Source: Limonium bicolor
Lineage: Eukaryota; Streptophyta; Magnoliopsida; Caryophyllales; Plumbaginaceae
Length of the DNA: 64,000 nucleotides
NCBI GenBank assembly: GCA_023374045.1
Contig: CM041776.1
Location: 473,979,375-474,043,374, forward strand
Direction: 5' to 3'
The notes under the pieces were generated by a model, which had not been told where the DNA came from, did no database searches, and worked only from the letters and a program-made list of their open reading frames with translations. The translations under genes and the position numbers were made by a program. Shown piece after piece: positions 1,421 through 62,700 of the stretch. Every line of letters starts with the position of its first letter. Positions within the stretch are counted from its first letter, which is position 1.

Positions 1421-1743
1421 GGTCCGGGACCGGTTACATATATTAAGTCCCGGACCAATGCAAGCAGCAACTCTCGAAACAAAAATAGAGGTGGTCCGGG
1501 ACTTCAACCATACCCTAAGTCCCGGACCGCATTCAAAGAAAAACCTCGAAAAAAACTAGGGGTGGTCTGGGACCTCATACCCAGCCTAAGTCCCGAACCA
1601 CATGTGATGAAAACTCTCGGCCCGTTTAATACCTTGGTCCGGGACTTCAACCATACCCTAAGTCCTGGACCGTTATCACTGAAAACTCTCGGCCCATTTA
1701 ATCCCTTGGTTCGGGACTTCAACCATACCCTAGGTCTCGGACC
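1421..1743. repeat. 72-bp-period hairpin array, internal copy of Athila-1
   Basis: Five units start at 1421, 1493, 1563, 1636 and 1708 (steps 72, 70, 73, 72). Each is a palindrome of about 36 bp with arms close to GGTCCGGGACTT and AAGTCCCGGACC around a 12-base loop. Spacers are related to each other and most contain AACTCTCG. The same arm sequence recurs in this element's LTR at 5252-5647. The repeat lies directly upstream of the plant-transposon-protein ORF. Confidence 0.93.
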
Positions 1744-2315
1744 ATCTATGGCTGTTAAAGAAATAAAACCAGAAAACGCGTCGTCTTCAACCTCCGTTCC
1801 CCCAACCCTAACCCGTACTCGCCTCACCGCCCGCTTTCGCCTTCCACCACAAAATACCACCACCACTTCCGACATCGCCCCGACCACCGCTATCACGCCT
1901 TCACCACCGCTCTCATCCACCCCCAACCCGATTTCGCCAGCACTTGCGACCACCACCCTTAACCCGATTTCACCAGCGCCTGCGACCACCAACACCAACC
2001 CGACTTCACCCAGAACCACCACCATCTGTCGCACAAGCCCACCACCACCGCTTCCGACATCCCCCCGACCACCGCACCCTACCCACCTCTCTATCTTGTC
2101 GCCTGCTCCAAAACCCACGCACCACACCCGCATTCAACTCCACCACCATTTCTTCTGTCGCTCAACCCCAAACCAACACCAAAGCCCCACCCGCACACCA
2201 ATCTGCTCCCAATTCGCAAAATCCTAACCTCATCCCGAACCACAACACACTCACCCATTATCACCGTATTAACCCAAGCGCACCCTTAATCACCAATCCT
2301 TAACCCAAAATCTTG
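1744..2315 (+). other. Pro/Thr-codon-rich leader before the transposon-protein ORF
   Basis: A C-rich stretch dominated by ACC/CCA/CCG triplets, with CCACCA-type low complexity. It is open in several frames because of its composition, so open frames here are poor evidence of a protein. It starts with a TATA-like AAATAAAA at 1761-1768 just after the hairpin array, and it leads into the ORF at 2316. It may be the 5' untranslated part of an internal transcript. Confidence 0.4.
1761..1768 (+). promoter_or_regulatory. TATA-like box after internal hairpin array (candidate)
   Basis: AAATAAAA lies 18 bases after the last hairpin. The second Athila element has AAATAAAG in the equivalent place (45268-45275, minus strand), also just after its internal array and before its ORF. 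The shared placement is what suggests an internal promoter; the motif alone would be weak in AT-rich DNA. Confidence 0.25.
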
Positions 2316-3636
2316 ATGGCACCCAAACAATCACGCCGCTCCAAACTGCCGGTGCCTTTTCCTCTTCCGACGCTCCCCCACTTCGGATAAGCGAGACGGA
2401 CCGTTCAGAATTGATCACTGACGTTGCTTGGGATTGGTTCCAAGCTAAGGAGCGCAAGATAATTCCTGAGAGGTCAGTTTGTCCCTCTTTAATATCTGAA
2501 TTCGATTTGGAGAGAATATTTAGCAACAGGGGTTGGGTATGTCTGCTGAACCGAGGTGGTACATTTTACCCGCGACTAGTTAAAATGTTCTATGCTAATG
2601 CTACGGTGCGTGATAATGGTATGGAAATTCAATCAAAGGTTAAGGGGAAGGATATTCTAATCGATTACACTCGTATTCAACAAGCTCTACATATCCCTAT
2701 TCGGGCTAGGATCCCGACTGCGGAGGAACGGGAGAATCAAGAACTCCGTGAGAGACAGGCTAAGGAGCATTATATTAATTTGATCGTGAATGATCCTACT
2801 GTTCAGAACCGCCAGAGGCGCAACCACCGGGATAAGCAGGTGGTTACCGGTGATAAACTGCCCACACAGCTTGAGTGTCTGATCTTGGGGATTTTAATGT
2901 ATAATGTCCGACCCCGGGAGTGTGCGGACCTAAATTCAATTGACTGCTATGTTTTGCGATATCTCCTTGATGACGAGCTTGCCCGGGTGGCGTTCCCCAT
3001 TGCCTTGCATGGAATAATTTTTCACTCAATGCTCCGGGTGATTGACGTAGACGGTAGCTCCTCTCTTCCCTTCCCGCACCTCCTGTAGTCCTTCTTCATC
3101 AATGCTGGGGTAGACTTCTCGGATGAGCAGCCCCAGTACCCCCGGTCTCCCATAGACATGACGATGATGCCCTTCTATCAGTCGGAGAAGATAGATGATC
3201 AGTGGGTGAAGCGCCGACGCGCACAGCCGGGTGCCCGAGCTCCCAGACCTGATGAAGCCGCTGAGGATGAGCCCCCTGCTGTTGCCGCTGGTGGTGACAT
3301 CCCCGACGTGCCGATGACCACTACTCCTACACCGGGATATGACGGGTTACTTCGTCAGTTTTCTGATTGGCAGGGATGAACACTACACTGGTCGATGGTC
3401 TTGCTGCTCATATGACTCAGATGAACGTTCGTTTAGACGGGATGAGTACGAGCCTGCACGATTATGGAGCACGGATCTCAGCTTTGGAGACCTGACAGCG
3501 GGAGTTTGAAGCTAGGCAGGATGCACGATTTGCAGAGTATGCGGCTCGCTATGAGGCACGTTTCACTTATTATGATGCCCGCTTCGCTCAGCTGGAGTCC
3601 TGGCGTCTGCCTCGGGATCGCCCACAACCTCAGTAG
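2316..3636 (+). pseudogene. Athila plant-transposon-protein ORF (env position), broken
   Basis: ORF downstream of pol, in the position called env-like in Athila elements. Function unknown. A likely start is ATG at 2316 (MAPKQSRRSK), but its frame does not continue into the main body, so a frameshift lies between 2316 and about 2400. The body (about 2405-3379) has the block FYPRLVKMFYANATV, matching the intact homologue in this window (43086-44387), which reads CAELVREFYANVRAG at that place. A TAG at 3086-3088 replaces an expected Gln. After a further frame change near 3375 a tail of Arg, Ala and aromatic residues with coiled-coil character runs to the stop at 3634-3636. The tail also holds one internal TGA. 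I see no signal peptide or transmembrane span. Confidence 0.75.
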
Positions 3637-5003: not shown

Positions 5004-5251
5004 TGATAAGTCAGAAATTTACCTATTTCTACAGGGTCTTTTGATACCTAATTCGTTGCTTTTTACTGCTAAATTCCTGTCTTATGAGTATTTTTGTGTT
5101 TCTTGTTGCAATTGTCTTCTTTTATGGTTTTTATGTGCTTTTTCAGGTTTTTAATATCAAGGAAACACATTCCTATCATTGTTGGAACCCATGGCAAATC
5201 AAACAAGCTGATTTGAGTCAAGAAAACAATTCTCGACCTAAATTCAAGTAT

Positions 5252-5647
5252 GGTTCGGGACTTGATTATGGAGCTAAGTTTCGGACCACATTGTGACTCA
5301 ACTCTCGAATCAATTTCAAGCATGGTCCGGGACTTCTTACATGGCTTAAGTCCCGACCACAATGTGCAAAAACACTCGACTTAATTTCAGGCATGGTCCG
5401 GGACTTGATACACGGCCTAAGTCCCGGACCACATGTGGCAGCTCCCTTTACCTGATTTCAAGCATGGTCCGGGACCTTATTACATGGCCTAAGTCCCGGA
5501 CCACAATTGCAGTATAAATCTCGAATCGTTTTCAGGAACGGTCCGAGACTTGATACACGGCCTAAGTCCCGGACCACACAGACGGTGATTTAGAACAATA
5601 TCTCAAAACAAATGGTCCGGGACCTCTCCCAAAACCCGTCCCGGACC
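5252..5647. repeat. 72-bp-period hairpin array in Athila-1 LTR
   Basis: Six units start at 5252, 5324, 5395, 5466, 5542 and 5614 (steps 72, 71, 71, 76, 72). Unit 3 (5395-5430) is perfect: a 12-bp arm GGTCCGGGACTT, 12-base loop, 12-bp arm AAGTCCCGGACC. Spacers are alike and often contain ATTTCAAGCAT or ATTTCAGGCAT right before a unit. It lies in U3, about 250 bp upstream of the TATA box. Confidence 0.95.
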
Positions 5648-5897
5648 AAGTGGGATTAAGCCGACATATCTGCAGCGCAAAAGGAGAATAATGAGTTTTT
5701 TTATATGGCCGCCCCATATTCTCCAGCCTTGTCCTCCACAATCGTTTTTCATCCATTACCACTGCCACTACTTTCCATCCTCTAATCCCACTAATCTATT
5801 TACCTTCCAAATCTTGCCAACCACACCACCATCTTCTCTGAACCATTCCAGCGTAATCACCACCATTATATCCACTATAAACCTCACCCATTCACAC

Positions 5898-5905
5898 TAT
5901 AAATA
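5898..5905 (+). promoter_or_regulatory. LTR TATA box, Athila-1
   Basis: TATAAATA in an otherwise C/T-rich context, followed by a pyrimidine-rich stretch typical of a plant 5' leader. The position within the LTR and the equivalent box in the second Athila LTR support a promoter role. Confidence 0.6.
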
Positions 5906-6566
5906 AGCATTCTCATCCCTCTTCTAAAACACACAATATCTCCAGCAGATAACATCTCCTCCCTTACGTACATAATTCCATTTCCCATTCTCATACAATT
6001 TTACACACTCCATCATCCATATTTCACACACATTCCATCCAATATACTTCTCTATCTGATTACATCCATTTTCCACTCTCATACCATTACACACTTACGT
6101 CCATCCATAGAAGTTTGGAGTGCATAAGCAGTTGAAGACTTCACCATATTCTGGGGAGATTAAGCAGAAGGAAATGATGACCGTACACAAAGACTCCATC
6201 AAAGAGTCTTAAATCAGAGTTTCTTCTTGCTCTTCCTCTTTAATGTTATTTACATATTTTGAGAGTACTTTTATTTCCATGGCTGAGTAGTTTTTATAAA
6301 TTTCAGTTTGCTATGTAATCCAAATTCAAGGTTCCATTATCTTTGTGATTTACCATTTAAATAGATTAAAGTACTTGTTCCTTATTTATTTTTATTAATC
6401 TTGTGATTTGGCTAATTACTGGATTTTATCAGTTTATCAGCTTATAAGTGAGAACTGCGGTAGATAATAGACAACAGGAACGGTACTGGTTAATTTAGAG
6501 ATGGTAATTCCTCTACGATATTAACTGATCAATAAATTGGATTTTTCTTAAAGCTGTTAGCAATTA

Positions 6567-6806
6567 CTACCTCCGTCCCATTTTCATCTTCTTGTTTGCT
6601 TTTTGGCACGTTTTCCACTTCAACATTAAACATATAAGATAAAATAATTTTATAAAATAAATTTCTATAACATATAGTTTTTGACATGAGGATTCCATTA
6701 CAAAAATTAGATTTGTAAAATTATATCATCTTATATGTTAAATATTGAAGTCAAACAACATGTTCAAATAGTAAACCAGACAGTCAATAAGGGACGGAGG
6801 GAGTAG
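6567..6806. mobile_element. Stowaway-like MITE
   Basis: A 240-bp element with terminal inverted repeats CTACCTCCGTCCC and GGGACGGAGGGAGTAG, flanked by TA on both sides (6565-6566 and 6807-6808). The inside is AT-rich and folds back over most of its length, and there is no coding capacity. This is the classic Tc1/mariner-derived MITE pattern. It is nested in the Athila LTR, so it is younger than that LTR copy or its family. A relative lies at 53791-54028. Confidence 0.88.
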
Positions 6807-7234
6807 TAAATTTGTAACGAGAGTTAAAATTTATTGGCTATTAATTAGATTCCACCGAGCGGGAGACCGGACGTGGAATATTTCTGATCTAGGATTTTAG
6901 TCTGGATTTTGGTAAACACATTGAGAAAGGAACCGAAGAAATTGGAGGATTAGTAAACCGGAATTTCCCCTTTTTATTAATTCAAGAATATCATTATTTT
7001 GCCCACAGTCTTGCATTTATTACTCTTGCTCTTATTTACATTCTTGTTTCGTAATTTAGTAATTCAACAAACAAAACCCCCCTGTTACTTGAGTGAACCG
7101 ATTTATTAGTTCATTTTTAGATATTAATTAAACTAAAACGCTGTCTCCCTTGGATTCGATAACCTGGAGGGATTCTTCTAGGTAAACTTGCTACAATCGA
7201 CCGGTATACTTGCCATTAGGTTTTTTTCCCAACA

Positions 7235-14979: not shown

Positions 14980-15503
14980 TGAAATACCCCGGACTTAATT
15001 AGGGTGATTAAATTACTCTAATATAATATTGAGGGCCTATTAGTGCCTAATAAATCTTGGTAAGGAAAATAATTCCAAAAGAAACAAGAAAACACTAAAT
15101 TGAGCGTTAAGTGACCGTAAGAGGAATACAACCTTAAAGAGGGTATTAAATGAATTTAAAAGGCTTAATAATGCCTAAGTAATATATGGGAACAATTACC
15201 GAAGAAAACGGATCCATAAAACAAATTAAAACGCTAATAAAGCTTTAGTGCACATTTTTCGAGAAAACCCGAAAACGTGACTTTAAGTGGTTGAATGAAC
15301 CCGTAAAAATTATAGTTCATAATAAACATTAATGGGAGTATAATAACCATTAAAATTAAAGAAACGAGAAAATTTCGGAAAACGGGCCCAGTTAGTGAAT
15401 AGTGCTAAACTGGGTAAATAAACGAGCGTTTTCTGTAAAAGATGAAAAACGCTCAAGCTGGTACTAATATAGTGGCCCGGTTTTAATTAGTAAGCAGCCC
15501 CAC

Positions 15504-15520
15504 TCACACACACACACACA
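15504..15520. repeat. CA microsatellite and AAAG-rich run
   Basis: Eight or so CA units, followed at 15531-15563 by AAAG/GAAAG purine-rich sequence, just before a TCTC-rich leader-like stretch in LTR-A. Confidence 0.8.
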
Positions 15521-16905
15521 CTAAATAAGTAAAGAAGGAAAGAAAAGAAAGAAAGAAAGGAAAAGTGCATAAAGCACTTTTCACTCTCTCTCTTATCTCA
15601 CTCTCACATTTCTCTTCCTCTCACCCGTATCCCCATCTCCCTCTCTGGCAATTTTCCTCCTCTCCTTCTTCCTCCTTGCGATTTTGCAGCTCTTCCATGG
15701 CAGCTCCTATATCTCCACTTACCCAAGCTTTAATAAAGCTCCAAATCAAAAACAAATTACATATTTGAACTCCCCTCATCCTCCTCTACCTTTCTCTCTT
15801 TTCGAAATTGTGAAAAGATGAGTTTCAACTCCATGGGTTTTCCCCATTTGAAGAGGAAAGCACATCATCTTGTAGCTTGGAGTCTCCTTTTCCTTCTAAG
15901 GTAAAATTTCATTGAAAAACTCATTCTTGTTCTACCTCCTTTGGTGACCGATTTTTACCCCTTTGTAATGCCTTGTTTTCTTCTTGATTTTGAGCTCCAT
16001 TTCAACCCTCCAATGGTGGAGTAACTCCCTTCTTGATTCAAGGGTGAGAACCCCTCTAAAAAATCATCAAAGGTAAACCTTAACCTTGTGTTTAAGCCTT
16101 AAATCGTTTTAGAGATTCTTAAGGGTTTTAGAATTTAATTGAACTTATTTTTGTGTTCCTTGAATGTTGGGATGGAGTTTGGAAACTCCATTCCCACTTG
16201 ACCGAATTTGGGAAGAGGAGAATCATAGAGGAATTTGTGAATTAAGGTAAGAAACCCACCTTAAAGCTTGATTCAAATTGCTTTAGGTTTTGGGTTGGGT
16301 TAAATTTAATAATGAACGCAAAATATGAGTGATAGTGTGCTTGGTTGAAAGTTGATGGATTTGTGAACATAATTGTGAACTAATGGCCTTGGAGCCAAGT
16401 GTTTGGAGTTTGTGAATTATAATGTTGTTTGGTGAATTTTTGAGAATATGTTGTGTGCTGGTAGGACCCCTTGTGGGTGTGGCTAGATTATGAATGAAAT
16501 TGGTGAGATTCGATGGTTTGGAGTATTGGAATGCTTTAGAAAAACTAGAAAAGAGCAAGTGTGCAAGACTTAGGAAATGGAGAGTGAACTTGGTTATGGA
16601 CAATGCAAATGGCTAGGAAGATGTGGTGATGGTCAATAAGAGGTTTGGTAAGGTGGTAGAAGATTGTAACCCACTAATGAGAAGTTAGACATGCACTGGT
16701 GTGCAAATGTAACAGTAAGGGTGGAAAATTTGTAGAAGTTGAGCTAGGATTTGAGTAGAGATTTGACCAATGGGTTGAAGAGGTTTAGAGCATGTTTTGA
16801 GGTGTTTAAACATGTAGGAAACATGTGAAAGATTATGAAATGATTTGGGGTGAATTAGGGGTTGAAAAATGATGGAAAACGGTAAATTTTGACAGTTCGA
16901 GAGGT

Positions 16906-17085
16906 GGTCCGGGTTTGCAAATCGGTACACAAACCCGGACCATAGCAAAAACATGGCAGAAAGAGATTTCAGGGGGTGGTCCGGGTTTGTAAACCCAGAC
17001 ATATACCCGGACCACATAGAAAAATGACCAGAAACCAATTTCAGTGTCTGGTCCGGGTTTGTAGACCCGGACACAAACCCCGACC
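16906..17085. repeat. 72-bp-period hairpin array in solo LTR-A
   Basis: Three units at 16906, 16978 and 17050, exactly 72 bp apart. Unit 1 is 12+12+12: arm GGTCCGGGTTTG, loop, arm CAAACCCGGACC. Spacers read GGCAG...GATTTCAGGG and CCAG...AATTTCAGTG before the next unit, resembling the Athila-1 spacers that contain ATTTCAGGCAT. It lies about 1.9 kb into the LTR. Confidence 0.95.
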
Positions 17086-19157
17086 ACTATAAAAATCCAT
17101 CAGAAAGTGTTTATAAGGGTTCTAAGCATGAGGGATTGATTGGTATTGGTTTTAGGTGATGTTTAGGAGTTGTTTGGTGACCTTTAAAGGTCCTAAGAAG
17201 TGAAAACAAGTGTGACGAGTGATTGAGATAGTTGTGAGTTTAAGAGCACATAAACCAAAACCAAAGAATAATGGGTTAACGGGGTTAATTACGGGAGTGC
17301 TAGTTTACATACCGTAGTACTTTAAATTAATGCAGATGTCTAAAATATTATCAGTGAATCAAGAGTAAGATTTGAGGAATGAGTGTTAGCCGAGGAACAT
17401 GAGAACGCCCGGTAACGTAAAACCATGGTGTAAGGTATGATTTCTTCATGCTCTGTATCCTAACTTGGTTACCCCGATTTGTGTGCTTGTTATTATGTGA
17501 TCACCTAACAAGATAAATACATGAATCGGATTGTGTGTACTCTCTAGTGTTGTATGGTATTGTTTGTGGTTGGATTGTATTTCTTTAAATGAAGTTTGTA
17601 TAATTCATGAAATGTGGATTGGGAATGATTTGTGTGATTGAGATTGTGTGTGGTAGTGCGACTCATAGTTGAGTCTTGTATGAGTAGAGACTCATAGAGG
17701 GAGTCAAGTGCAAACTGATAAAATGGTGAAAACACGCCACAACTATTGAACCAATACACGTTAACATAAACCTACGAACACACTAGGACGTGAGAAAACA
17801 TTCGGGAGTAGCAACCTCCCGGTAACGGTGAGAGAACTGAAACAACTTAATCCATATGATAAATATTAGTGGAAGCATATGAGTAACCTCTAAATAGAGC
17901 ATTGGTAGGTTGTTCGAAATACGAACCTTGAGTAAAGTAAAGCTTGGTAAGGGATCACCAAACCCCTTAGAGATATAGTCGAAACCCAATGAGAGGAACC
18001 GACTAACATGAGCAATGTCCCGAACATGAGAGTATTCAATAAGTTGGTTGAAACCTTAAATCTTAGAATACTAGACATCAAGGAATTCCCTAAACCATTA
18101 GATGTTATCGAGAGAGATACTTCTAGGCTAATCCTTGAGATTGTGAGTTAACTTCGAGAGTGGAGTTATGGGAAATTGAGTAGTCGTGTAGTGAACCGGA
18201 CATTTGAGTATTTGAGGAGCTAACTGTATAGCCCTATTTGTATTTGAGCCCGGTGGTGGGTCTTGTGTATGACCCTACCCGGAGGTCGTGAGAATGACTT
18301 AACATACACTTTGAGCATTGAGTATTGAGAATTGGGCGTTGAGAATTGAGTTGTGAATTGAGGGACTTGAGAATTTGAGTTGAGTGGAGAATTGAGTTGA
18401 GTGTTATAGACCTTGTTGAGATTGTGAGTAAGAGTACCCAAGGGAGTGGGTAGAACATGAGTAATCGAGTAAGGCATGGTGAGGTAGAAACCCTCAAGCC
18501 TAATTAAAGAACATATTAAACTAACCCCTTGATGTGTGTTAGTGCTAGTGTTCAATGTTGAGCTTGTTTATGAATGTACATATATAATGTATGTTGTATG
18601 CATGCTGTTTGAAATAAAATGAACCGCATGCTCTCGACCAATTAGTCGGCGTACCCTCGCTAGTACGCGGGGTATGCGGAAGACATATTCAGCGTAAGCT
18701 GAGCCCCTAGGGGCAACGTTTTTAGTGTGCAGGTACCCGAAGTAGACAGGATCGCAATAAGAGACCAGCTAAGCATGGGTAGTTATTATGAAATGTAGTT
18801 GTTGTATTGTGGATTTGTAAGACCGAAAGGTCATTGTTAAACTGGGGAATTGTAAATACTCGGTATAGAACGGATTTGGGATTATACTATATGTAATGGA
18901 TTGAAGGGTGTATTTAGTTTGAGAATTGATTAAGTAAAGGAAGTTTCTCTTGTATAGTGTACTCGGTGTAAGACCCATCAGACCGATATTGTATACGCTG
19001 TTGTATTTGAGTTTGGATTTGGCCTAGCTAGTCACGTGGGTGACTAGCGACATTGTATCACACCCGGTTGTAGTATTGAATTCCGCTGCATTATGGTTGG
19101 TAGTTGAGACGGGTTAGGAGATAATGGTGTGATTACCGGTTGGGGTGTTACATCTGG

Positions 19158-22817: not shown

Positions 22818-22822
22818 TCTCT

Positions 22823-27457: not shown

Positions 27458-27533
27458 TGGTATCAGATGTAGCTTTCTCTGCGCCCAGTTCTTCTGCCCA
27501 GAGCCGGTAGCTATCTTCTCTCCGCTTTCCACC

Positions 27534-35848: not shown

Positions 35849-35852
35849 TCCT

Positions 35853-41650: not shown

Positions 41651-41690
41651 AACTTCCTCACACTTGACTTTTGCTTGTCCTCAAGCAAAA
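41651..41690 (-). promoter_or_regulatory. Athila-2 polypurine tract and pre-PPT hairpin
   Basis: On the minus strand, TTTTGCTTG/CAAGCAAAA with loop AGGA (41690-41669) is followed by AAGTGTGAGGAAGTT, which abuts the 3' LTR. Same arrangement as in Athila-1 at 4967-5003. Confidence 0.85.
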
Positions 41691-43085
41691 TAAGGAATAT
41701 AATTATCTCTAAGCCATAATAAAACAAGATTAAATAAGTGTAGAAGGGAATTTAGACAAAGTGACAATTGAAAGAATAATTCTGCTCTTAAAAGTAGGTT
41801 TTTGCAAACAGCGAAGAAGAACAATTTAATAAAAGCATAGAAAAACTAGACTGCAGAAAACAAGTTAGATTAACCTGGGATTTCCAACCAATTTCAATTC
41901 TCTAACCCGGGATGACAAGGGATGTGAAGTAATGCATTATTCCGCAATACCTTTCAACACCACGTACTCATAAATATAAATTCAATTTATTATTTTCATC
42001 TCTTTTTTTGAATGCGAAGATTGTATAAACAAAACACATATTTTTTTTTAATTGCATTATTTTTCTGTACCCCAGACTTTTCTCTCTATCCTTGTAGCGG
42101 TGTTGGGTCTTCTATCCCAGGTCACGAGACCTTAGGTAGATAGGTGTTAAAGCACCCCGAAGAACTTAATAACCGGATAGACGAGGCCTGTTTTTGGTTA
42201 GAAAAATTCATAAACAGCGAGTAGTAGTACCTTGTCTTTATCCTTTTTTTTTCCTTGACTTTCCACATATTTCCATAATCCCAAGCTAAACTAAATTGGT
42301 TTTTACAATTAGCAGATCTATCATATTTTAAGTGAAAATAGAGTATTTTGAAGGAAAATAATTTTATACAAACTCCTTTAAATAAAACCATTTTTCAGTT
42401 GTCACTTGACATAATTTCAGACACTTCTACAATTATTTTATCTCACTTTTTCATTCTTTTTTTATATAGGCAGTTTAGAGTAGCAAAAAGTGAGTGTAGC
42501 ATTACCGAACAACTGTCATATTTTCAGGGAAAGGTCTCTCCTTCCTCACACTTAAGAGGAGCAATGTCCTCATTGTTCAGAATTAATTTCAAGAAAAGGA
42601 CCTTTCAAATTATGACAGACTGATAAAGGATTAAACTCATATATGTTGAGCAGGAATATAATAAAGGAAGAACTAAAACTCCCCTTGGATCGTAGATTGA
42701 GGAAGGTATCCTTCCTCACACTTAAAGCTTTGGTAGGGGTGAGACGTTCCTCACACTTAAGTTCGCGCAAGTGGTCAACCGAAGATATCGAAATTCCTAG
42801 AGCAACTGAGGTTGCTTCCATAGGCGAGTTCAGCTATATGTTCGAATATAGAATTTATTCTGAAAAGGGAAACATATATAGCCAGCAGAACTCAAGTTGC
42901 ACCAAAAAATAATAGAAGGCAAACCATAAATAATAATGCATTGCATAAAACAAAAACATAAAGTAAACTGAACTGTTACCTTCCTGTATGTAACAAAAGT
43001 TTGACAAGGTTAAAACAGTATTAGTCTTACAAAATGTTAGTAAACAACAGAGAAATATAAAATAAAATAAAAATAAAAATAAAAA
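41691..43085 (-). other. Athila-2 3' untranslated region with extra PPT-like copies
   Basis: No gene seen. TTAAGTGTGAGGAAGG-type words occur at 42541-42555, 42711-42726 and 42747-42760, each like the true polypurine tract. The first follows a small hairpin CAATG-AGGA-CATTG (42562-42575). The equivalent region of Athila-1 has the same pairing at 4042-4081. Confidence 0.6.
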
Positions 43086-44387: not shown

Positions 44388-45294
44388 ATAAATAATTTGG
44401 AAATTTGAAAGTAAACAAATATTAACAGCATAACAATTAATATTTAATATTAAACAGAGTAATAATAACATAATAATTAATAAACCATAACAGCATGAAA
44501 TTAATAAAAATTAATAAACACAAAAAAACAACAGAAGAATTAATAAACACAAAAAAAAAATATCAAACAGAGCATTAATATTTGACATAAACAACTTAGT
44601 AATTTAACAAAAATAGAAAATAAGTAGAACAAATAATATAAACAAAAATTAAAATAAAATAAACAACATAAATTCTGTCGAAAATTCGACAGAACCTCCC
44701 CTAAAATTCTTCGATTCTCCACAATTAATTCAGTCAAAATCTAGCTAATTCAACACCATTATCACACAAATCCACATATATCATCCTATAATCATAAATA
44801 ATTCTCTTAATAACAACAAGGCATTAACAAAATTGGAAAATGCAATTTTTAACAATGTACTCTCGTAACTCGCATATACCCAAATTTGGAATTCATCCAA
44901 AACATCAAAATTAAGCATAATCAGTGTAGATTTAATCTTGTGCATGTATAATATGATAATAGAAGAAGAATTTGTGGACAAAATCGCAAATTAAGCTCGA
45001 ATTTTCGAAACGGTCGACCTAGGTTTTCGAAAATTCAGTTCCTAATTTCTCCTAGTGTAGTTCATCATTTGTAGATTTGAAGCTATAGAAACGTAGAGAA
45101 CGGAAAAACGAAGATTTTGGTACTAACCTTGCGTGATTCGGTGGAGAATTGAATAATCTGGAGCAATTGAGGGGGAGGGCTGGTCGCGCGCTTCGTCTTC
45201 TCTCCGTCGTCGATTCCGAGCAATTTGAGAGTGTTTGGGAAGAACAGACTGAAACCGAAACGCAGCGCTTTATTTTTTTTCTGAATCGAGTGAC
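44388..45294 (-). other. Leader between internal hairpin array and Athila-2 ORF
   Basis: AT-rich near the ORF. Two strong palindromes: TTCTGTCGAA/TTCGACAGAA at 44673-44694, and GAATTTTCGAAA facing TTTTCGAAAATTC around 44998-45035. A good splice donor CGCAAG/GTTAGTA lies near 45130, so an intron could run from there towards the ORF; I could not fix an acceptor. A TATA-like AAATAAAG (45275-45268) starts this stretch. Confidence 0.45.
45268..45275 (-). promoter_or_regulatory. TATA-like box after internal array, Athila-2 (candidate)
   Basis: AAATAAAG lies 20 bases after the last base of the internal hairpin array on the element's strand. It mirrors the Athila-1 layout (array, AAATAAAA, leader, same ORF). 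Confidence 0.25.
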
Positions 45295-45519
45295 GTCCGT
45301 TTGGACGTCCGCGTGGAGTGAGGCGGACACGGGTGTGGCGTCCGCGTGGACGACCGCGTAGAGCTAGGCGGACAGGGGTGCGGAGCGGTCTCAGTGGCGT
45401 CCGCTTGGACGTCCACGTAGACTGGGGCGGACAGGTGGAGTTGGCTTACCTCACAGGCGTCCGCTTGGTCGACGTCCGCTTGGAATTGGGCGGTTGGCTG
45501 GGCGGCAGGCTAGGCGGAC
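45295..45519. repeat. GTCCGC/GGCGGAC hairpin array, internal copy of Athila-2
   Basis: 34-bp units at 45295-45328, 45340-45373 and 45399-45432, and a longer one at 45459-45519. Each begins GTCCG and ends GGCGGAC. Inside units the word GGACGTCC or GGACGACC recurs. The arm family is the same as in this element's LTRs and different from that of Athila-1. Confidence 0.88.
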
Positions 45520-45589
45520 CGGTGTCTGCTTCACTTTTTTTTTTTTGATTTTGATTATACGTATCAAACAACAAAATAAAAATGTCATT

Positions 45590-45790
45590 AAATTATAAAT
45601 TAGTAGTTAGATGACATAAAATTATAAGTTAGTAGTTAGATGACATAAAATTAAAAGTTAGAAGTTAATTTACATAAAATTAAATGTAAGTAATTAGTTG
45701 ACAGAATATTAAACGTTAGGAATTAGTGTACATAAAATTGAAATGTTAGAAGTTAGAATTAGATGTTAGGAGTTAGATTAAACAACAAAT
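45590..45790. repeat. 33-bp AT-rich tandem repeat in Athila-2 leader
   Basis: Copies of TTAGTAGTTAGATGACATAA-like sequence at a period of about 33 bp between the primer site and the hairpin array, decaying towards the primer side. No coding content. Confidence 0.75.
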
Positions 45791-45930
45791 ATGATAATAT
45801 AAACAAAATATAGTAGATAATTAATAATAACAATAAACAAAATATTATAGACATATATTAACAGAATAAAAAGTACAAAATTTATATTAAACAGGTGAAT
45901 AATCCGGGGCTTAGGAACTAGAATATATCT

Positions 45931-45950
45931 AGTCCCCGGCAACGGCGCCA
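45931..45950 (-). promoter_or_regulatory. Athila-2 primer binding site (tRNA-Asp type)
   Basis: TGGCGCCGTTGCCGGGGACT on the minus strand, three bases from the LTR end. This is the characteristic Athila primer site for minus-strand cDNA synthesis. Confidence 0.92.
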
Positions 45951-46893
45951 TTTTGCAGAATGTTTATATCTGAGTGGTTAGAACTGGTGTAATTAACATA
46001 AAAGAAAAGAAATTTAAACTCAAAATAAACGTCGGGCTGCAAAAAAATCCCGGTCGTGGTATAGTAAAAATGTAAGCGACTGGATATCGAACCGTGGGAC
46101 TAATGTGCATATTATAGTACCTAAGCGTGTCACAAAAAGGGGGGATTAATTGACTTGTTTTTATATAAATAAAAAGGGAAGATAAAATTAACTAAGTAAG
46201 CAGATAAACTAAATGGGACTCTGGTTCTCGTTAATATAATAGCTCTTTCATGCTAGGTCTACTGGTTAAATTATAATTGTTTGGCAAAATTCCTCTTATT
46301 ATCTTAAGGACTAAATCATAGACTCATAAGAACTCGTTTACCAGAAAATGCAAGGTTCTAATCAAGGTTCAAGCATAACACATGTAAACGGACGGTTTAG
46401 ATATGAGAAATTATATTTGCATCTGAAAATACCAACTTATTAAATCATAATAAGCTTTCTCCAGATTTACAGCTTAATTAACCTGTCTATTTATCACCGG
46501 TCTGATTAAAATAGACTGGTAAAGCATTTTAATAAATTCATGAGGTTTATTAAAAAGATGCGAGATAACCTTTAAGCGTAACAAACTTCATTAAAATTAA
46601 AACCAGTAAAACATATTGCATAATTAATACAGATACATAATAATTATTCCCAGAGTATACGTAAACTAGCCTAACATATTAAATAGAGATCTGCTATTTA
46701 AATACGTGGGACTAGAGGTGAGACTAATGAAATTAAAAGAAAACAAATGAAGAAGCGGAAGATTAGAAATAGAATGAATGAGTGAGTGAAAGTGTAGTGG
46801 TACGAAGATGGATTGATGGGGTGAATTGGAACTCCAGAAGGAACCACGGAAGGAACCTCCGGAAGGACACTGGAGAAGACGAATGGAGCGTGG

Positions 46894-46901
46894 TATTTAT
46901 A
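46894..46901 (-). promoter_or_regulatory. Athila-2 5' LTR TATA box
   Basis: CTATAAATACCACGC context on the minus strand, with the hairpin array about 180-440 bp upstream of it. The same layout is seen in Athila-1. Confidence 0.65.
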
Positions 46902-47079
46902 GAGGAAGGAAAGGTAAGAAGAGGGAACACCGCGTGAGTGTTTTAAGGCAGCGCCTGATATGTTAAATGTAGTAGATGGATATGTTGCAGGCGCGCCGAA
47001 AGGAAGAAGCAAGTTGGAGAAGACAGTCGGCGAAGAAGATAACCCGTTGCGTAAATTTCCAGATCTGGACATTTACACG

Positions 47080-47333
47080 CGTCCGTGTAGATGTCCGCCT
47101 TAAATGGGGCGGTTCGTCATGCGGTGGCTCAGTTTGTCCGCGTTGACGTCTGCATTGTTCATGCGAACAAGACTACACATGCGCGCGCGGTCCTCTATCT
47201 CACGTCCGCCTAGTATGGAGCGGACACAGGCACGGTCTCCTCTCAGTGTTGTCCGCCTTATGAGACGCGGACGCAGGGGCGGTCACCACAGAGTTGTCCG
47301 CCTAATCCCAGGCGGTTGCAGGGGCGGACACAC
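47080..47333. repeat. GTCCGC/GGCGGAC hairpin array in Athila-2 5' LTR
   Basis: Near copy of the array in the 3' LTR (41184-41434), with small differences such as GTCCGTGTAGATG for GTCCGCGTAGATG in the first unit and CCGCGTTGACG for CCGCGTAGACG in the second. Confidence 0.88.
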
Positions 47334-47550
47334 CACTGCGCGTGCTTCACGCGTGACCTTGTTTAATCCCTATAAATATATGTGTTTATTTGGCATTTTT
47401 CCTACATTTTAACACATATAATACATCAGTTAATATAACAACATAATTATAGGAAAAACCCAAGATAAGTGAGAAACATTACTAAAAATGCTGCAAATTA
47501 TAAGCTGATTAAACCTTAATAAGTCTATATGTTTTGCACTTATCAACGGG

Positions 47551-48300
47551 TCGGGTCAAAGTTAGGCTGGTCAAAGCTGGGTTGGTCAAAGTTGGACCGA
47601 GTCAAGGTCAAAGTTCAGTCAAGTCAAACTTGGGGTCAAGTCAAAGTTTCAGGTCATAGTCAAAGTTTCGTTCAAGGCAAATTGGGCCTTCTTGGGGTTT
47701 CGGGCCGAATGGGCATGGTTTGGGCTTTTGGACTGAATGGGCCTTGTTTATGCTTTTGGGCTGAATGGGCCTTGTTTAGGCTTGAAATGGATTTGGGTTG
47801 AATTGGGCTTGGGTCCAAAATGGGTTTGGTTTGAATTGGGCTTGGGTCTGAAATGGGTTTGGGTCTGAAATGGGTTTGGGCCCAAAATGGGTTTGGGTTG
47901 AATTGGGCTTGGGTCTGAAATGAAATGAAATAAAATGGGTTGAATTGGATTTGAATCAGGTTTGAATTGAAATGAATTGGGTTGAATTCGATTTGAATCG
48001 GGTTTGAATTGAATTGATTTTGAATTGAAATAAATTGGACTGAATTTGATTTGAATCTGGTTTTAATTGAAATGGGTTGGGCTGGGTTAAATTGAATTGG
48101 AATGGGTTGAATTGAATCAAAATGAATTGAAGTAGAATGAATTGAATTAGAACTGAAATGGGCTGAAATTGAATTCAATTGAGTTGAATTGGGCCGAAAC
48201 TGAGTTGAATTGGAGTGAATTTAATTGAATTTGAATTAGGCTTGAATTGAATTGGGCTTGAATTGATTTGAGATGAATTGAGTTTGGATTAAGTTTTGGG
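47551..48300. repeat. GGTCAAAG and GAATTGGGCTTGGG low-complexity tract, right piece
   Basis: Starts with a tandem of GGTCAAAGTT words (47555-47675), then TGAATTGGGC/TGGGTTTGGG repeats and GAATTGAATT repeats. Continuous with 39720-40043 before the Athila-2 insertion. Its long minus-strand open frame (47672-48178) is compositional (Asn, Ile, Gln, Phe). Confidence 0.8.
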
Positions 48301-53760: not shown

Positions 53761-53790
53761 CAACAAAAAATATCTTGGTTATGTTATATA

Positions 53791-54028
53791 CTCCCTCCGT
53801 CCTGAATTGACCGTCTTGTTTACTATTTGGACATGTCGTTTGACTTCAATTTTTAACATTTAAGATAAACTATTTTTAAAAATTTAAGTTTTACAAACAA
53901 TTCCTTACATGATAAATTATATATTAAAAAAATTAGTTTTATGAAATTATTTTATCTTATATGCTTAATATTGAAGTTGAAAAACATGCCATAAAGCAAC
54001 CAAGACGGTCAATTCAGGATGGGGGGAG
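53791..54028. mobile_element. Stowaway-like MITE, second copy
   Basis: 238 bp, ends CTCCCTCCGTCCTG and GGATGGGGGGAG, TA on both sides (53789-53790, 54029-54030). Its AT-rich interior (ATTGAAGT, TTTATCTTATATG) matches the MITE at 6567-6806. Confidence 0.88.
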
Positions 54029-54030
54029 TA

Positions 54031-54380
54031 TTATTTTACAATTTAGGATTGCTATGAGAGCCTAAGACTTTGTTTGACTCGACATATGTAATTGTTTTTA
54101 TTGTTTTATTTGTGGTGGTATATTATTGAAGAAGAATGTAGGACCCACATGGGACTCATGTGGAACCCATGCATAGACCACCTCTTTATATTATAAATAT
54201 GCCATCAAATATGCCACAAAAATACCAAAGCAAACAAAGCCTAAACGATAGTTGCTGGCAAAAAAAGGTAGAAGTTCTCTCTAGTTGTTGAAACGGTGGG
54301 TTTTGATGAGATGATAATTCGAACTTCTTTCTATACAATAACATTATTGGTTAAATTGAAACTCTGGCGGTCTATTTGGT
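54031..54380. other. AT-rich spacer, nothing recognised
   Basis: Unique-looking sequence between the MITE and the LINE tail. No ORF or repeat that I can support. Confidence 0.4.
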
Positions 54381-56064: not shown

Positions 56065-59000
56065 TGTAACACCCCAACTACCACCGTACACAAAACATCA
56101 AACTGCAGCAGAAAATTCAACTCATCACATTACCTATTTCAATGGTGTTACACGCCGTTAACCACCCACGTGGCTAACAAGGCTAATACATGTACTTTGT
56201 ATCGGTCTGATGGACTAGATTCCCGAGCAACTACACGTTACATTTGCTTCCTTTAACAACAACCCATATACTTTATACATTCCAACCGTACCGAGTATTT
56301 ACATACTAATGCCGATAACAATTTCAGTCTTACTACGCCTACAATGCTTACGCCATTTAAATGGCTACCCATGTATAAACATCTACCCCGTCCTACTCTC
56401 GAACGGCTTCCAGCTCCTTGTACCTGAAATAGAAAAGGAGAGAAAGGGTGGCCCCCAAGGGGCTCAGCACCTTTGCTGGTATGGTAATCCCGCAGCCCAC
56501 ATGCTACCGGGCCACGCACAACTAATTGTCGTCTTAGCATGCGATTGATTATATTTAAATCATGCATGCAACTGTAAACACACAACACAAACATTTCGCC
56601 TCAATGGGCTCAAACAAACGGATAATACATCCTTACTTGATGAGTCACTCATGGTATTCATTATCCCTAGAGTGTTCCTCCTCTAACGGAGCTACTTCCT
56701 TAATAGACGTCACTTACCCTTAAATCGGGTTATCCTTAAACGCCTCTTGTCACAAACTGGGATTCAGTTCCATGATCCACACACTCCATATCTTACAACA
56801 TATCACATTCCTCACATAACAAAACATAACAACACTTTTCTCGTTTCGACGTACACATGATAACATCGCATTCATTTTAAACATCTAACGTATACATATC
56901 ATAGCATAGCAAGGGAAATTGCCTAGCACAATAACAACACAAAAACACCATAAGATCGGTTCACACAAGGAACCTTCCACCATAGTTAGTATACATAGTG
57001 AGCCTAGAGATTATTACCAATCTCATGCTAAGCTCGTTACCAACCTCGTTACCGTCCAATTGTATCGAACGGTTAACTTAAACCCAAGGCGTGTCGGATA
57101 TAGTAATCCCAAGCACGCCGAAATAACATTTGTATGCCCTTGTGGCCCGACGTGAGTCAGTAAACTAGCTTTGGATAAGCTAAGGGAAGATTGAAACCAA
57201 ATTGGAATACAACCTATACATACACCAAGAGAGCCGAACCGGATATGACATCGACTCCCATCCTCACACGCGTGGCCGGAACATGACCGGACTCCTCACC
57301 CCCCGTTAGTACATATATACTTATAAATAAGTAGTTAGAGTTCCACTATGGAACTTATCACATCCACACACCATACGGTATCATAACCGAGTTAAGCACA
57401 CCAGGGAGGTTCACACACTTGCATACAACAACAATATCCAACTAACTCACACATAGTCGTGGTTAGAACGTTCCCAAGGTTTGGGTCGTTAACTCCGAAT
57501 ACCGATCTCTCATGTGTCCCTGGTTCTGGTTAGCTAAGGTTTAACACTTATTTGAGGTTAAACGGTATCGGAGATCAAAAGCGCCACATAAATGAATTAC
57601 TATAAACTCATTACATGTTTTTATCTTACAAGGTGGCAACACTCAGAAAACACATTGGCATACAAGCCGGTGTAAACCGGTAGGACACAGGTTGCAAGAA
57701 AATCATACCTGTCACCGGAGTCCACTTTACCACGTCGACTTATGTTCCTCGAGCAATTCTCAAACAGCTGATAACATTACATATACTTTTATTAACATCG
57801 GGGTTGCATGATTATTTAATGTCTAATGCTTATAATTTTTCCCCGTTAGTTTAGTTACATAACTTCACTCTTTAACTTGTTTTACTTTCACATTTTATTA
57901 CAACTTTTCACCCACTTAATTGTCATTAAAACTCACCTAACATGTCCTTAACAACCTTATAATATCATTAACCATCAATCCCCATCATTACACACCATTT
58001 CCATACCTTAAACAAAGTTTTTGGTCCATACAGTGGCCCGTCCGAACTTGTGTCCGAACCTCCAAGTTCGGACGTGAGTCGAGAATCTCTAAATGCGGGA
58101 ATCCATGCGTCCGAACATGTGTCCGGACTTCCCAAGTTCGGACACAGTTCGAGTGTGCAAGATGCTTACCCAACAGAGCCTGTCCGAACTTCCATGTCCG
58201 GACGGAAGTTCGGACAAGGCAAAATGCTCAATTTCCAAGCCTTTAAACACTTAGCCAAATTCCTCCAAAGCCTCCAACACTTATAGTATCTACTCCCTAG
58301 GTTCCTAAGTGATGTTTCATGCCTATTCTTACCATTATACCAAGACATATCTTCCACACAAACATCATCATCCAAACATCCTTTCTTACAAATAAAAACT
58401 CCTTATGTCATTCTTACGATTCCTTTTTCCAAGCTTACACTTTCTCCTCAATTTACCAAAGTTTGCCTAAGTCTTTACCTATGTCCAAAATGACTTTGGT
58501 ACATACTAAAACCTCAAGATCATGCCTAAGTCCTTATTACACTCTAGAACACTTCCTAGTTCACCAAAATTCCTTTAAAACACTTTGAACTTCTTATACA
58601 TTTTCCTAAATTTTGACATGGGTTCTTCTAGAACATTACTTGACCAAAACACATTGTTTTCTCCATTAATCACACAAGAACACCTAAAATCCATCAAGAA
58701 CTTTCTCACACACATAACTTCACCAAGTTTACACTACATCACAATAGTGCATAAACTTAATTGCTTGGCACTTAGGCCCTTAAATAACATGGCTCTTAGG
58801 CCCTTAAATTGCATAAACCTTAAAGACTGAATCTCCACAATATATAAGCCTTTGACCTGTAAATACACACAACAAGACATATGTCCTTTACTAGTCTCCT
58901 TAAGAACATTTTCCTAAGTCATGTACCATTAGCTCTTTAGGTAGTTTTAGCAAGCATTATAAGCTCATTTCTACTAAGGCATTAAACCACATTGAGATAG

Positions 59001-59784
59001 CATATTTACCTCCTCTTTCCACCCAAACTTCTTTCTTGTTTCCTTACAAAAACCGGTAAGGTATTTGATTCCTTGTCAACTACTACACAATATACAAACA
59101 TTGAAATGAATATACAAGCTTTAAGCTTCATCTCATTGTAAACCCTAGGTTTACATTGTTTCAAAAACATTAATGTAGTTGTTTTACCTTGATCTTTGAA
59201 GAGAGTTGGAATATCTATGAAGAGGGGACTCCACCTAGTCCATGAAAGATTCAAATGGAGCTAGAACAAGGCAATATAAGAGCACCATTAATGGTGAATT
59301 TTCGGACACCAACAAACATGGAGGGAACTTGATTTTTCTTGAGTTTCCTTACCTTGAAGCAAAGGAGAACAAGAATATGTGAAAAGATGAGCTCAAGCTC
59401 CTTCAATGGTGAATCTCCATGGCACCAAAATTGAGTTCTTGAAAATTTAAAAAGAGAGAAGTGTAGAGCTTGACCTAACTAAGATAAATATGGTCTTGGA
59501 ATTTGATTTGGCCAAGGGAGCTAGAAGATACAAGTGGTCAAAGCTTGAAGATGGTATATGTGCTGTAGCACCACCGAGAGGAGCATGGAGGGAGGTTGGA
59601 GATGTTGGAAGTGAAGGGAAATGAGAGAATGAAGATAAAACTTGCTTTTGGAGATATTTAAGCTAAAAGCAAATAGTACTTTTGCTTTGCCATTACTTAA
59701 CTTATTTACTTGCTCCAAATGTGGTGAGTCACAATGAAAAACCGGCCCCCTTATCCCACCTAGGGGTATAATAGTCTTTGTTTG
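56065..59784 (-). mobile_element. LTR-D, minus strand, interrupted by LTR-E
   Basis: Plus-strand start TGTAACACCCCAACTACC is the LTR's 3' end. It carries GTTAACCACCCACGTGGC, as LTR-A does near its end, the palindrome region CCCCCAAGGGGC (56452-56463), a hairpin array (58040-58215) and a leader-like zone. It aligns in inverted orientation with LTR-E over most of its length. Its 5' end, expected as GGGGTATTTCA on the plus strand, is missing because LTR-E begins at 59785. No pol sequence. Confidence 0.82.
58040..58215. repeat. Hairpin array in LTR-D
   Basis: Three units at 58040-58073, 58109-58143 and 58182-58215 (steps 69 and 73). Unit 1 has 11-bp arms GTCCGAACTTG/CAAGTTCGGAC around 12 bases. 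The loops of units also contain GTCCGAAC or GTCCGGAC. The arm differs from those of LTR-A and LTR-E although the LTRs are related. Confidence 0.93.
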
Positions 59785-62700
59785 TGAAATACCCCAAACC
59801 TTGATATGTGGTTTAAATATCAAATTATGTTATAAAGGCTAAAAGTGCCTTAGAACTCAGTGAACAATTGAACATAGTAAAGTGCAATAAAGCACTAAGA
59901 CACAGTTTGAGCAAAAACATGCTCTAAGCTATGAGTGAACTTGGTTAGGACCCAAAGAGCCTACCAAACTTGATAACATTCAATTATGATTTTAATAAGG
60001 CTAAATAAGTCCTTAGGAAACTTTGGTAGACAATGAAACCCAAACAAAACACAAGGTAATACCTTAAAGTCAATAAGAGCAAAAATGTGCTCTAGCTTGG
60101 GATAAATTTGTATAAAGACCTAATGGTCTATATATCTTATAAATATGTTATGAACATATTAAATCAATTACAAGAAAACCAAGCTTGAAAACAAGTTAAA
60201 ACACAAAATGTGCTTTAAGGAGTCTTAAAGCCGTTTTGAAAAATTGTCTTGTAAATGAGTTTTGAATGGCTAAATGACCATCATTACTCTTTAATTACAT
60301 GTTAATACTATATAGTATCACATTTTGGGTGGCCATATTGTGGGAATCAAAATTTCACTTCTATGTGCCTTGTATTTGAATATAATTTCTACAAACTAGT
60401 TTGTAACATATAATGTTATAAGTGATTAGTTAAGTTGGTCACAAAGACCAAAACACCCTCCTAGGCATAATGGTGGCCGGTTTTGTAGAGAGGATCACCA
60501 AGTATGTTAACTTGTTAAGTAAATAAATGTGACTCATAGTTACTATTTGCTTAAGACTTAAATTCTTAAAGCAATTCTATCTTCACTTCCTTCCTCCTTC
60601 ATTTCACACGTTCCACACTCTCTTCTTCCTCTCTTCTTCTTGTTCTCTCTCGGTGGTACATGATACAACCATGGAAGTCCATCTTTGACCATATGTAAAA
60701 CCTAGCTCACTTAACAAATCAAAAACAAACACCACCATTCTCTTAGTTAAGCCAAGCTCTACAATCTTGTCTCTTCAAAGCTTCAAAACCTCCATTTCGG
60801 TGCCAAGAGAAACCACCATTGAAGGAGTTTGAGCTCACCTTTTCACATATTCTTGTTCTCCTTTGCTTCAAGGTAAGGAAACTCAAAGAAAAATGACATT
60901 TCCTTCATGTTTTGTCATGTCCGAAATCCTCTTAATGGATCATTATATTGCCTTGTTCTAGCTTCATTCCAAGCTTTCATTGGACTAGGAGGAGTCTCTC
61001 TTGATATATATTCAAGCTCTCTTTCCATTCCAAGGTAAAACGATCATGTTAATACCTTAAGATATATATGTAACTAGGGTTTACAATGAGATAAGCTAAA
61101 GCTTATATCTCATTTTAATGTTGGTATATTGTTTAGTTGTTTTGGCAAGGAACCAAATGCCCTACTACCGGTTTCTACAAGGAAACAAGAAAGAAATTTG
61201 TGAGGAAAAAGAGGTAAACAAAAAACTATCTCAATGTAGTTTAAATGCCTTAGGAAAAATGAGCTTGATTTGCTTGATAAAATACCTAAGGAGCCAATGG
61301 TGAGTGACCTAGTAAGTGTTCTCAAGGAGACTAGTAAAAGAACATATGTTTTGGTGATGTATTTGCAGGTCAAAGGCATTAAATGTGGGAAATTCAGTGT
61401 TTAAGGTTATGCAATTTAAGGGCCTAAGAGCCATGTTATTTAAGGGCCTAAGTGCCAAGCAATTTAAGTTATGCACTATATGTGATGTAGTGCTTAATGT
61501 GTGAAGTTTGTGTATAAAGTGTGTTTGATGGATTTTAGGTGTTCTTGCATGAAATAGGTAAAAACCTAAGTGTTTGGATGTGAGTAAATACAGAGAAGCT
61601 ATGGCCAAATTTGGAGAAATGTGTGAGAAGTTCTAAGTGTTTTTTAAGGAATTTTTGGTGAACTAGGAAGTGTTAAGGTGAATGAATGTTTACTTGAGAA
61701 AAAACATGTGTTAAGGTGATTTAGAGCGATGTAAGGATTTAGGTGTTGTCTTTGAAGTTTCTAGGAATTCAATGTGTGTTTGGTGAATGTATTAAAGTCT
61801 TGGAGGAGTTGTTAAAGGTTTAGGTATGTTGGTGTTCAAGGAATAAGTGATGTTTAGGTATGATGTTAACAAAGGAGATTTAATTAGTAGAAAAGAAGTT
61901 GAGGGATGATGATAAGGTGTAGAGGATACACCTTGGTATTTGGTATTATAGGTGAAATGCCACCTAAATCATAAGGAGAAAACATTGTAGTGTTAGGAAT
62001 TTTGTGAGTATAAGTAAAGGTTTAAGGAATTAGGAAAACTAATTTTGTGAGTGTTTAGAATATATTAAGGGTGTGTTTGAAGTGCCAAATGATGTTTTAG
62101 AACACATTAAGAGCCTTAGAGAAGTTTGGTGAAGATTTGACAAAGTTTGGGTAGTTTAGGAGCGACCGACCAGGGGCCGACCCAGTTTGTGTCGGTCGAG
62201 CCTCTGTAAAATGTTAAGAATATGTTCGGTAATGGACCGACCCAGAAGGTGGGTCGGACATGGGTCGGTCGGTCAGTTTCAAAGGGTGGAAAATGTTCGC
62301 ACATGGACCGACCCAGATGGTGGGTCGGACGTGGGTCGGACGGGCATGTTAATAAGGAAGTAAAAAGGGTCTGTAATGGACCGACCCCAGATGTGGGTCG
62401 GTCGGGGGTCGGTCGGACCAAGATGTTGCTTCGGTTTGCCTGCTCTCGCTGCTGGTGCTGTGGTGGTCCTGCATGTTCATCCGGCTGTTCCGGCCATGTT
62501 ATGAGTTTTAATACCTCCGTGGGTGCAGGTTGTACTTAATGTGACGTCAACAGTTACATGTATTTATTTAACCAAGTTAACGGGGGAAAAGTATAAGCGT
62601 TAGACTTAAACACACATGTTACCCCCCAATGTTAATAAAACCCATGTGATGTTACAGTGGTTCGAGAATTACTCGAGGAACATAAATGGACAGGATAGTG

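Follow-up and report, generated by a model that had tools for sequence, protein, structure and literature searches.

Palindrome arrays in the LTR elements of the window

We analysed a 64,000-nucleotide stretch of the Limonium bicolor genome (assembly GCA_023374045.1, contig CM041776.1, positions 473,979,375 to 474,043,374 of the forward strand), hereafter called the window, for arrays of short palindromes that lie in and around the long terminal repeats (LTRs) of its retroelements. Clusters were defined without the use of coordinates, as at least five cores of the form G[TA]CCG or CGG[TA]C with gaps of at most 60 bp. This rule returned exactly eight clusters, at 1422, 5396 (part of an array beginning at 5252), 16907, 41184, 45295, 47081, 58040 and 62164, and thereby recovered all eight arrays that a sequence-only reading of the window had placed there. 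The arrays at 41184 and 47080 are the two LTR copies of a single element and therefore only seven are independent. Resampled sequence hardly yields such clusters: 21 were observed in the window and 20 random genomic regions (264 kb), compared to one in ten first-order Markov resampling runs. With a stricter detector of palindromic units, the window gave 20 units, whereas 20 shuffles gave 0.15 on average; its clusters corresponded to five of the eight arrays (1422, 5396, 16907, 58040 and 62164) and none of the three arrays of the element at 40049–47546 was recovered with it. The units mostly start with GTCCG or GACCG, as had been proposed for all of them, and some carry degenerate cores, for instance GTTCG at 5253. 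The half-sites, their core and spacing, the matched arms, the position in the LTR and the genome-wide abundance described below are direct observations.

Two host elements, Athila-1 and Athila-2, we take to be of the Athila type from their LTR start or primer-site type; Athila-1 has an Athila-type LTR start, and evidence for a primer-binding site comes only from Athila-2. In Athila-1, all features of which are on the plus strand, an interior array (1421–1745) of five 34-bp units GGTCCGGGACTT..AAGTCCCGGACC at steps of 72, 71, 72 and 72 bp is followed downstream by an open reading frame (ORF; 2273–3085) that matches the Pfam family Transposase_32 (42.7 bits, E 7.3e-11, just below the curated cut-off of 45). 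The Athila-1 LTR (5004–7163) starts with TGATAAGTCA, its end being merely where similarity stops, and harbours a second array (5252–5648) with six units at steps of 72, 71, 71, 74 and 74 bp. The half-site GGTCCGGGACTT is common to both arrays. About 26 kb upstream, beyond the window, this LTR has a second copy, which does not contain the 243-bp inverted-repeat insert that interrupts the LTR near 6565–6808. This insert is related to another one at 53789–54033, each being about 245 bp long.

Athila-2 (40049–47546) lies on the minus strand and has both an Athila-type LTR start and a primer-binding site (TGGCGCCGTTGCCGGGGA, exact, 45933–45950). Its 5′ LTR (45954–47546), delimited by the similarity of the LTR pair and by the LTR start, is 97.9% identical to the 3′ LTR (40049–41651), which has its minus-strand start at 41650. 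The array of the 5′ LTR (47080–47331) lies 216 bp past the LTR start and 180 bp upstream of TATAAATA, and that of the 3′ LTR (41184–41436) has GTCCGCC/GACCGCC half-sites. An internal array (45295–45521) is located between the primer-binding site and the ORF, and GTCCGC-type half-sites thus occur in both array places of the element. The ORF (43089–44510) again matches Transposase_32 just below the cut-off of 45 (43.2 bits, E 5.2e-11); no further Pfam domain was found in the scanned frames of this short element. Low-complexity TTGAA/TGAATTGGGTT-like repeats flank Athila-2 at 39755–40028 and 47966–48260 and match each other at 71%; the element may have inserted into such a tract.

Furthermore, we fetched six genomic copies around the Athila-2 ORF, four of which carry both arrays. 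The primer site TGGCGCCGTTGCCGGGGA was exact in four of the six, had one mismatch in another and was absent in L042. In the latter, a 28-core array of another type, with GACCGGACTT half-sites, was seen at 766–1085, about 2.2 kb upstream of the Athila-2-like ORF, and neither a primer site nor an LTR start was found within the fetched stretch. In the LTRs of Athila-2 the TATA box comes after the array, and TATAAATA was found 180–235 bp downstream of the LTR array in four of five array-bearing copies including that in the window, L041 being the one without. In Athila-type LTRs, which start with TGATAAGT, the array begins 214–248 bp after the LTR start in all six cases where both could be seen (window 5252 and 47081, L026, L041, L044 and L046; 5252 was counted from its degenerate first half-site).

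In both Athila-1 and Athila-2 the internal array thus lies upstream of a Transposase_32-matching ORF. This ORF is abundant, with 90 copies scored among 10,328 first-look candidates of a genome search. At three other Transposase_32 loci an upstream array (within 1.7 kb) was present only at L049, where it has the Athila-1 motif, and L047 and L048 had none. A protein database search with the ORF gave no match at E ≤ 0.001 among the 7,994 best word-sharing candidates scored, a comparison with solved structures gave a single meaningless match (E 0.74), and no literature was found that uses the name Transposase_32 together with Athila.

The remaining arrays of the window lie, or in one case probably lie, in LTRs of a different kind, the TGAAATACCCC type. 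One such LTR (14980–19152, plus strand) was delimited by alignment to an LTR of region L019, the end of which precedes an iMet-type primer site; its array (16905–17090, plus strand) consists of three units GGTCCGGGTTTG.. and lies 1928 bp from the LTR start. Another (59785–64000, plus strand) extends past the window end and carries an array (62163–62418, plus strand) of four triple units with GACCGACCCA half-sites, 2380 bp from its start. The array at 58039–58216 (minus strand; three triple units, GTCCGAACTT half-sites) is probably within a minus-strand TGAAATACCCC-type LTR, for which no LTR start word was found. The window and the random regions contain 12 exact TGAAATACCC starts, seven of which are followed by an array 1.93–2.78 kb on. 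Of the other starts, 55084 runs on for only about 300 bp before an interruption, and just 2.35 kb of sequence lie behind L015:7649.

Behind the LTR end, L011, L015, L016, L017 and L019 have an iMet-type primer site. The LTR ends of L019, L011 and L015 align, and most of the middle does not; between L019 and the window LTR at 14980 the middle is alignable at 69–71%. No Pfam domain of LTR elements and no pol was found in the scanned frames of TGAAATACCCC-type interiors, including 5 kb more of L019. From its LTR ends and primer site the type might be Tekay-like, a label that we do not claim. In region L013 another, tighter array of palindromes precedes, by about 440 bp, a primer site of a third type, which we take to be of the Tat/Ogre kind.

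Half-sites mostly follow a common spacing

We rescanned 17 arrays, each with its own 10-base half-site. Twelve of these were regular, with pairs at 29–32 bp and units about 72 bp apart. In ten arrays the units have the form > 12 > 17 < or > 17 < 12 < (distances between core centres in bp), and arrays 5252 and L026 contain simple pairs at about 29 bp. The outer half-sites are mostly 29–32 bp apart and the next unit follows 38–45 bp further, with a period of about 72 bp. Five arrays of the window (1422, 5253, 16907, 58040 and 62164) bear out the earlier observation that five of them step at close to 72 bp. The sequence-only reading had described units with two arms; these palindromes are real, but a third half-site had been overlooked in most TGAAATACCCC-type units. 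It is present in 38 of 41 such units, compared to 3.2 expected from shuffled interiors, and the core centres of a unit lie at 0, 12 or 17, and 29 bp. The doubled side is on the left in the left units and on the right in the right units in all eight arrays that show a change of polarity (ten scored; 0.008 two-sided if independent, which the arrays are not fully). The whole array therefore tends to be a dyad.

The same distances dominate without selection of half-sites. Among unselected core pairs of 19 random regions, 7 of 41 were at 17 bp and 10 of 41 at 29 bp; among the first 100 listed matches of a genome-wide pattern search, 33 were at 17 bp, 12 at 18 bp, 18 at 29 bp and 16 at 32 bp. The step from unit to unit is 71.97 bp with a standard deviation of 1.23 (36 steps, 11 arrays), yet in the same arrays 30 bp of the spacer between units are just 0.22–0.54 identical. 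As the spacers have diverged and kept a nearly constant length, this suggests that unit spacing is held by selection.

Third half-sites and mispairs were scored in 13 arrays, without L013, L019 and the Athila-2 arrays, and the period in 11 of these 13, without L012a (steps 74 and 135) and L015 (153, 70, 70, 69 and 68). L012b and L042 were assigned to the TGAAATACCCC group only because of the kind of array they carry and, as their strand was not known, do not enter the mispair count. Because half-sites were picked by similarity to a family word, their conservation is inflated in the rescan and in the third-site, spacer and period analyses. Moreover, arrays of the same family share ancestry and p-values therefore overstate independence.

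The two arms share a family-specific flank

When the seven bases after the core were compared between forward and reverse half-sites, mean identity was 0.50 within the same array, which none of 5000 permutations reached, and 0.305 with arrays permuted (14 arrays; w1422, L012a, L012b, L017 and L041b were left out as family repeats). In addition, the second core base was equal in both arms in 59 of 63 core pairs of the random regions and in 33 of 43 of the window. Both arms thus share the same family-specific flank, weakly in the Athila-2 type. This bears out the earlier proposal that arms pair with themselves within an array and differ between arrays, and it also upholds part of the idea of a modular cis element with conserved geometry: the architecture is shared across LTR types, core and geometry stay, both flanks change together, and the arrays lie at regular positions within LTRs. 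As for the exchange between lineages that had been part of this idea, convergence would explain most of the data equally well. The sole hint of exchange is that arrays 16907 and 5252 have GGTCCGGG and a nearby ATTTCA word in common, as judged by eye.

Arrays are abundant in the genome

To see how common the arrays are, we took the first 20 of 80 randomly drawn 10-kb pieces of the 2.92-Gb genome. They contained 13 core clusters, of which nine, in 8 of the 20 pieces, are typical arrays; this count leaves out three clusters of L028 and one of L026 without palindromes (L026:7941, five cores in a single direction). L028 was also excluded post hoc from the array distance, pentamer and core-pair analyses for its dense overlapping frames and three core clusters. 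Throughout its 10 kb (L028:1–10000) this region has long overlapping open frames on both strands, unlike the other random regions, and no Rfam family reached the gathering score in it.

In the remaining 19 random regions (190 kb), GTCCG..CGGAC at 17–45 bp was seen 41 times, compared to 1.4 expected, and among all 1,024 palindromic pentamer pairs only ATATA/TATAT outrank it by z. Genome-wide, the pattern GTCCG-N12-40-CGGAC occurs 694,820 times and the reversed pattern, a word without CpG and so not CpG-matched, 16,052 times. The first 100 matches listed lie within the first 415 kb of the 540-Mb contig that holds the window and form 26 clusters, 18 of them with at least three matches. The arrays are thus not local to the window. 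Extrapolated from the random sample and the listed matches, the genome would contain in the order of 100,000 of them.

Other elements in the window

LINE-like frames with DUF4283, RVT_1 and zf-RVT domains were seen at 21864–25927 and 35093–38511, with LINE-1 ORF2 as the best relatives among solved structures; a second, diverged LINE-like copy matches 22735–25497 at 69.7%. The reverse transcriptase frame at 24131–24697 is LINE-like; it does not belong to Athila-2 and was rejected as a clue to the superfamily of the TGAAATACCCC type. At 27270–31957 lies a Ty1/copia element with gag, integrase and RVT_2 domains. Its terminal repeats measure about 195 bp and share 95.4% identity, and the core-cluster rule found no palindrome array within the element.

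Comparison with known repeat systems

The closest known system are the repeated motifs of Sireviruses, a group of Ty1/copia elements, described by Bousios et al. in 2010 (PMC2829016). According to the passages of that paper that bear on them, these are palindromic boxes with a CGG-CCG core in CpG-rich LTR clusters that begin 200–400 bp after the LTR start, upstream of the TATA box; an extra cluster lies upstream of the accessory (ENV) ORF where this is present, and the motifs are stated to be absent from classic retrotransposons. The arrays described here are likewise palindromic, repeated and CpG-rich with a CGG-CCG core, and those of Athila-type LTRs start at a similar distance from the LTR start (six of six). 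In contrast, the arrays of all seven TGAAATACCCC-type LTRs with both a start and an array lie much further on. The array before the Transposase_32 ORF of Athila-1 and Athila-2 recalls the Sirevirus ENV cluster, but this ORF was not identified as ENV and two further loci (L047 and L048) are without such an array. The hosts differ as well, being of the Athila type, the TGAAATACCCC type and a third primer-site type, and Athila-2 with its TGGCGCCGTTGCCGGGGA and TGATAAGT is not a Ty1/copia Sirevirus. Moreover, half-sites here converge (GTCCG..CGGAC), often with three per unit and 72-bp steps, whereas the Sirevirus boxes of that paper are tight CGG..CCG palindromes. The arrays are a variant related to, but distinct from, the Sirevirus motifs.

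A palindrome of maize Sirevirus LTRs, CACCGGACNNNGTCCGGTG, marks a palindrome-rich regulatory region of the LTR (as reported in PMC5311732 and PMC10760457) and contains the same CGGAC/GTCCG core. In our reading of this consensus its half-sites diverge and are 8 bp apart, its host is Ty1/copia, and small-RNA data exist for it. The target arrays of VANC proteins in VANDAL elements resemble ours as short, dense, family-specific non-coding motifs that change with the family; however, as far as PMC5735166 describes them, VANDALs are DNA transposons, the VANC motif YAGTATTAY is without a CCG core and its copies are arrayed in the same orientation, whereas half-sites here alternate. Retand elements have an antisense ORF. 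As in the elements here, their tandem repeats are family-specific and close to an accessory ORF, the plant domain of which is named after a transposase (PMC11963269). The Retand repeats lie between pol and the 3′ LTR, the relevant passages of that paper give no inverted half-site geometry, and the domain is Transposase_28, not Transposase_32. At the level of titles and the beginnings of abstracts, no description of arrays of this kind in Ty3/gypsy elements was found.

A proposed protein-binding platform and its alternatives

On balance, the sequence features suggest that the arrays probably serve as multi-site cis-regulatory platforms that are read by a sequence-specific DNA-binding protein. 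The arrays in the LTRs and, in the two Athila-type elements, also upstream of the accessory ORF would be docking platforms. The reader would more likely be a host protein than one of the element, would probably act as a cooperative oligomer and would recognise the GWCCG core plus a few flanking bases; one docking unit would comprise half-sites with centres at 0, 12 or 17, and 29 bp. Such docking units would recur every 72 bp in most arrays and at closer distances in Athila-2. Each element family would have its own flanking sequence, which the half-sites of its arrays follow; flanks would be free to differ by family because the protein complex needs the core and the spacing. We infer protein binding, a host origin of the reader and control of LTR transcription from several features. 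The presence of a third half-site, the narrow spacing and a core common to different arms argue that an oligomeric protein recognises these sites as duplex DNA; their location before a TATA box suggests control of transcription. The motif CGG[AT]C also occurs in 9 of 13 Sirevirus consensuses in the table of PMC2829016 (3e-6 at 1/8 each if independent), from monocots as well as eudicots, which points to a conserved host reader.

Several results weigh against this platform reading. Five of the 17 rescanned arrays (1422, 41184, 45295, L013 and L019) showed no regular series, although array 1422 is regular when scanned with the word GTCCGGGACT, and 41184 and 45295 have 12/17 triples about 16–18 bp apart in another core analysis. 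A third half-site was present in only 2 of 15 Athila-1 units (0.12 expected). The Athila-2 arrays share the core GTCCGC and their flanks match poorly (0.27 in 41184 and 0.31 in 45295); the four arrays of this type, with arm flank matches of 0.27–0.39, are the weakest case for paired arms, and steps of 45–47 bp, shorter than 72 bp, occur in part of the Athila-2 arrays. The Athila-2 copy L045 had no array at the threshold used. In a comparison of recent copies, biased by these having been found via the array itself, the half-sites showed no significantly lower variability than the spacers (1186 and 686 of 5000 permutations). Finally, no array cluster was found behind the TGAAATACCC starts L013:3664, L016 and L020, each of which is followed by more than 3 kb of sequence. 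These three and L015:7649 begin with TGAAATACCCCTAA and none of the seven array-bearing LTRs do, and therefore they may represent another subfamily.

Among the functions suggested earlier for the arrays, the third half-site and the fixed spacing agree best with protein binding, and RNA hairpins remain a rival. The transcribed units, which are inverted repeats, could fold to yield small RNAs or serve RNA packaging, with the palindromy kept for the stem. Mispairs in the element sense lean to wobble pairs (G:T 30 versus A:C 14, p 0.023 with units that are not independent), and an excess of maize small RNAs on palindrome-rich Sirevirus LTR regions is reported in PMC10760457. However, without orientation the mispairs are nearly even (G:T 26 versus A:C 23), a hairpin needs neither a third half-site copy in its loop nor a fixed distance between units, and the Athila-2 LTR arrays are upstream of the TATA box; we regard hairpins as unlikely. 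A reader encoded by the element itself, such as the product of the Transposase_32 ORF, might bind the array of its own family in a VANC-like manner and activate or un-silence the element. The abundance of this ORF and its position downstream of an array with a half-site like that of the LTR array in both Athila-1 and Athila-2 favour the idea, as does the report that VANC binds to short motifs that have built up in tandem (PMC5735166). We demoted it to a rival, and a quite unlikely one, because two of the three further ORFs are without an upstream array; in addition, no Transposase_32 ORF was identified in the scanned frames of TGAAATACCCC elements, and readers specific to each element would hardly account for copia Sireviruses having this core too.

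The arrays might also be tandem repeats without function that unequal exchange and reverse transcription keep homogeneous. Tandem repeats of LTR elements often turn over fast, and within families the arrays are copied together with the element. Homogenisation should, however, keep spacers alike, while here the half-sites and the 72-bp step stay and the spacers do not; nor would it match inverted arms or yield one core across LTR types, which makes neutrality very improbable. Least probable of all is that the arrays are CpG-dense islands read by their methylation state, through methyl-CpG readers or the targeting of demethylation, with the exact sequence incidental. In all 18 arrays the observed/expected ratio of CpG exceeds that of the flanks, and in 17 of them (all but 1422) CpG density is more than twice the flanking value; the Sirevirus palindrome clusters of PMC2829016 define predicted CpG islands. 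But CpG density alone requires no matched arms, no single core and no spacing kept to about 1 bp.

The platform reading could be extended to a single regulatory code across lineages, in which a conserved host protein family reads GWCCG in a fixed lattice of 12, 17, 29 and 72 bp and element families change the flanks of both arms at once to escape or recruit particular paralogues. With the same core in Ty1/copia Sireviruses of monocots and eudicots, this code would be ancient and would have arisen via convergence or module exchange. LOB-domain proteins, as readers of CGG, are a candidate lead for the reader protein. We consider the extension to a single code possible but doubtful.

A cis-element that had been described as specific to one copia genus is found here in other LTR types and at the scale of a genome. 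Its spacing rule is precise enough to suggest the stoichiometry of a reader, and with a defined half-site, spacing and family flank it is directly testable by binding, chromatin and small-RNA data. It bears on the question of how giant LTR families are driven and how they are kept silent.

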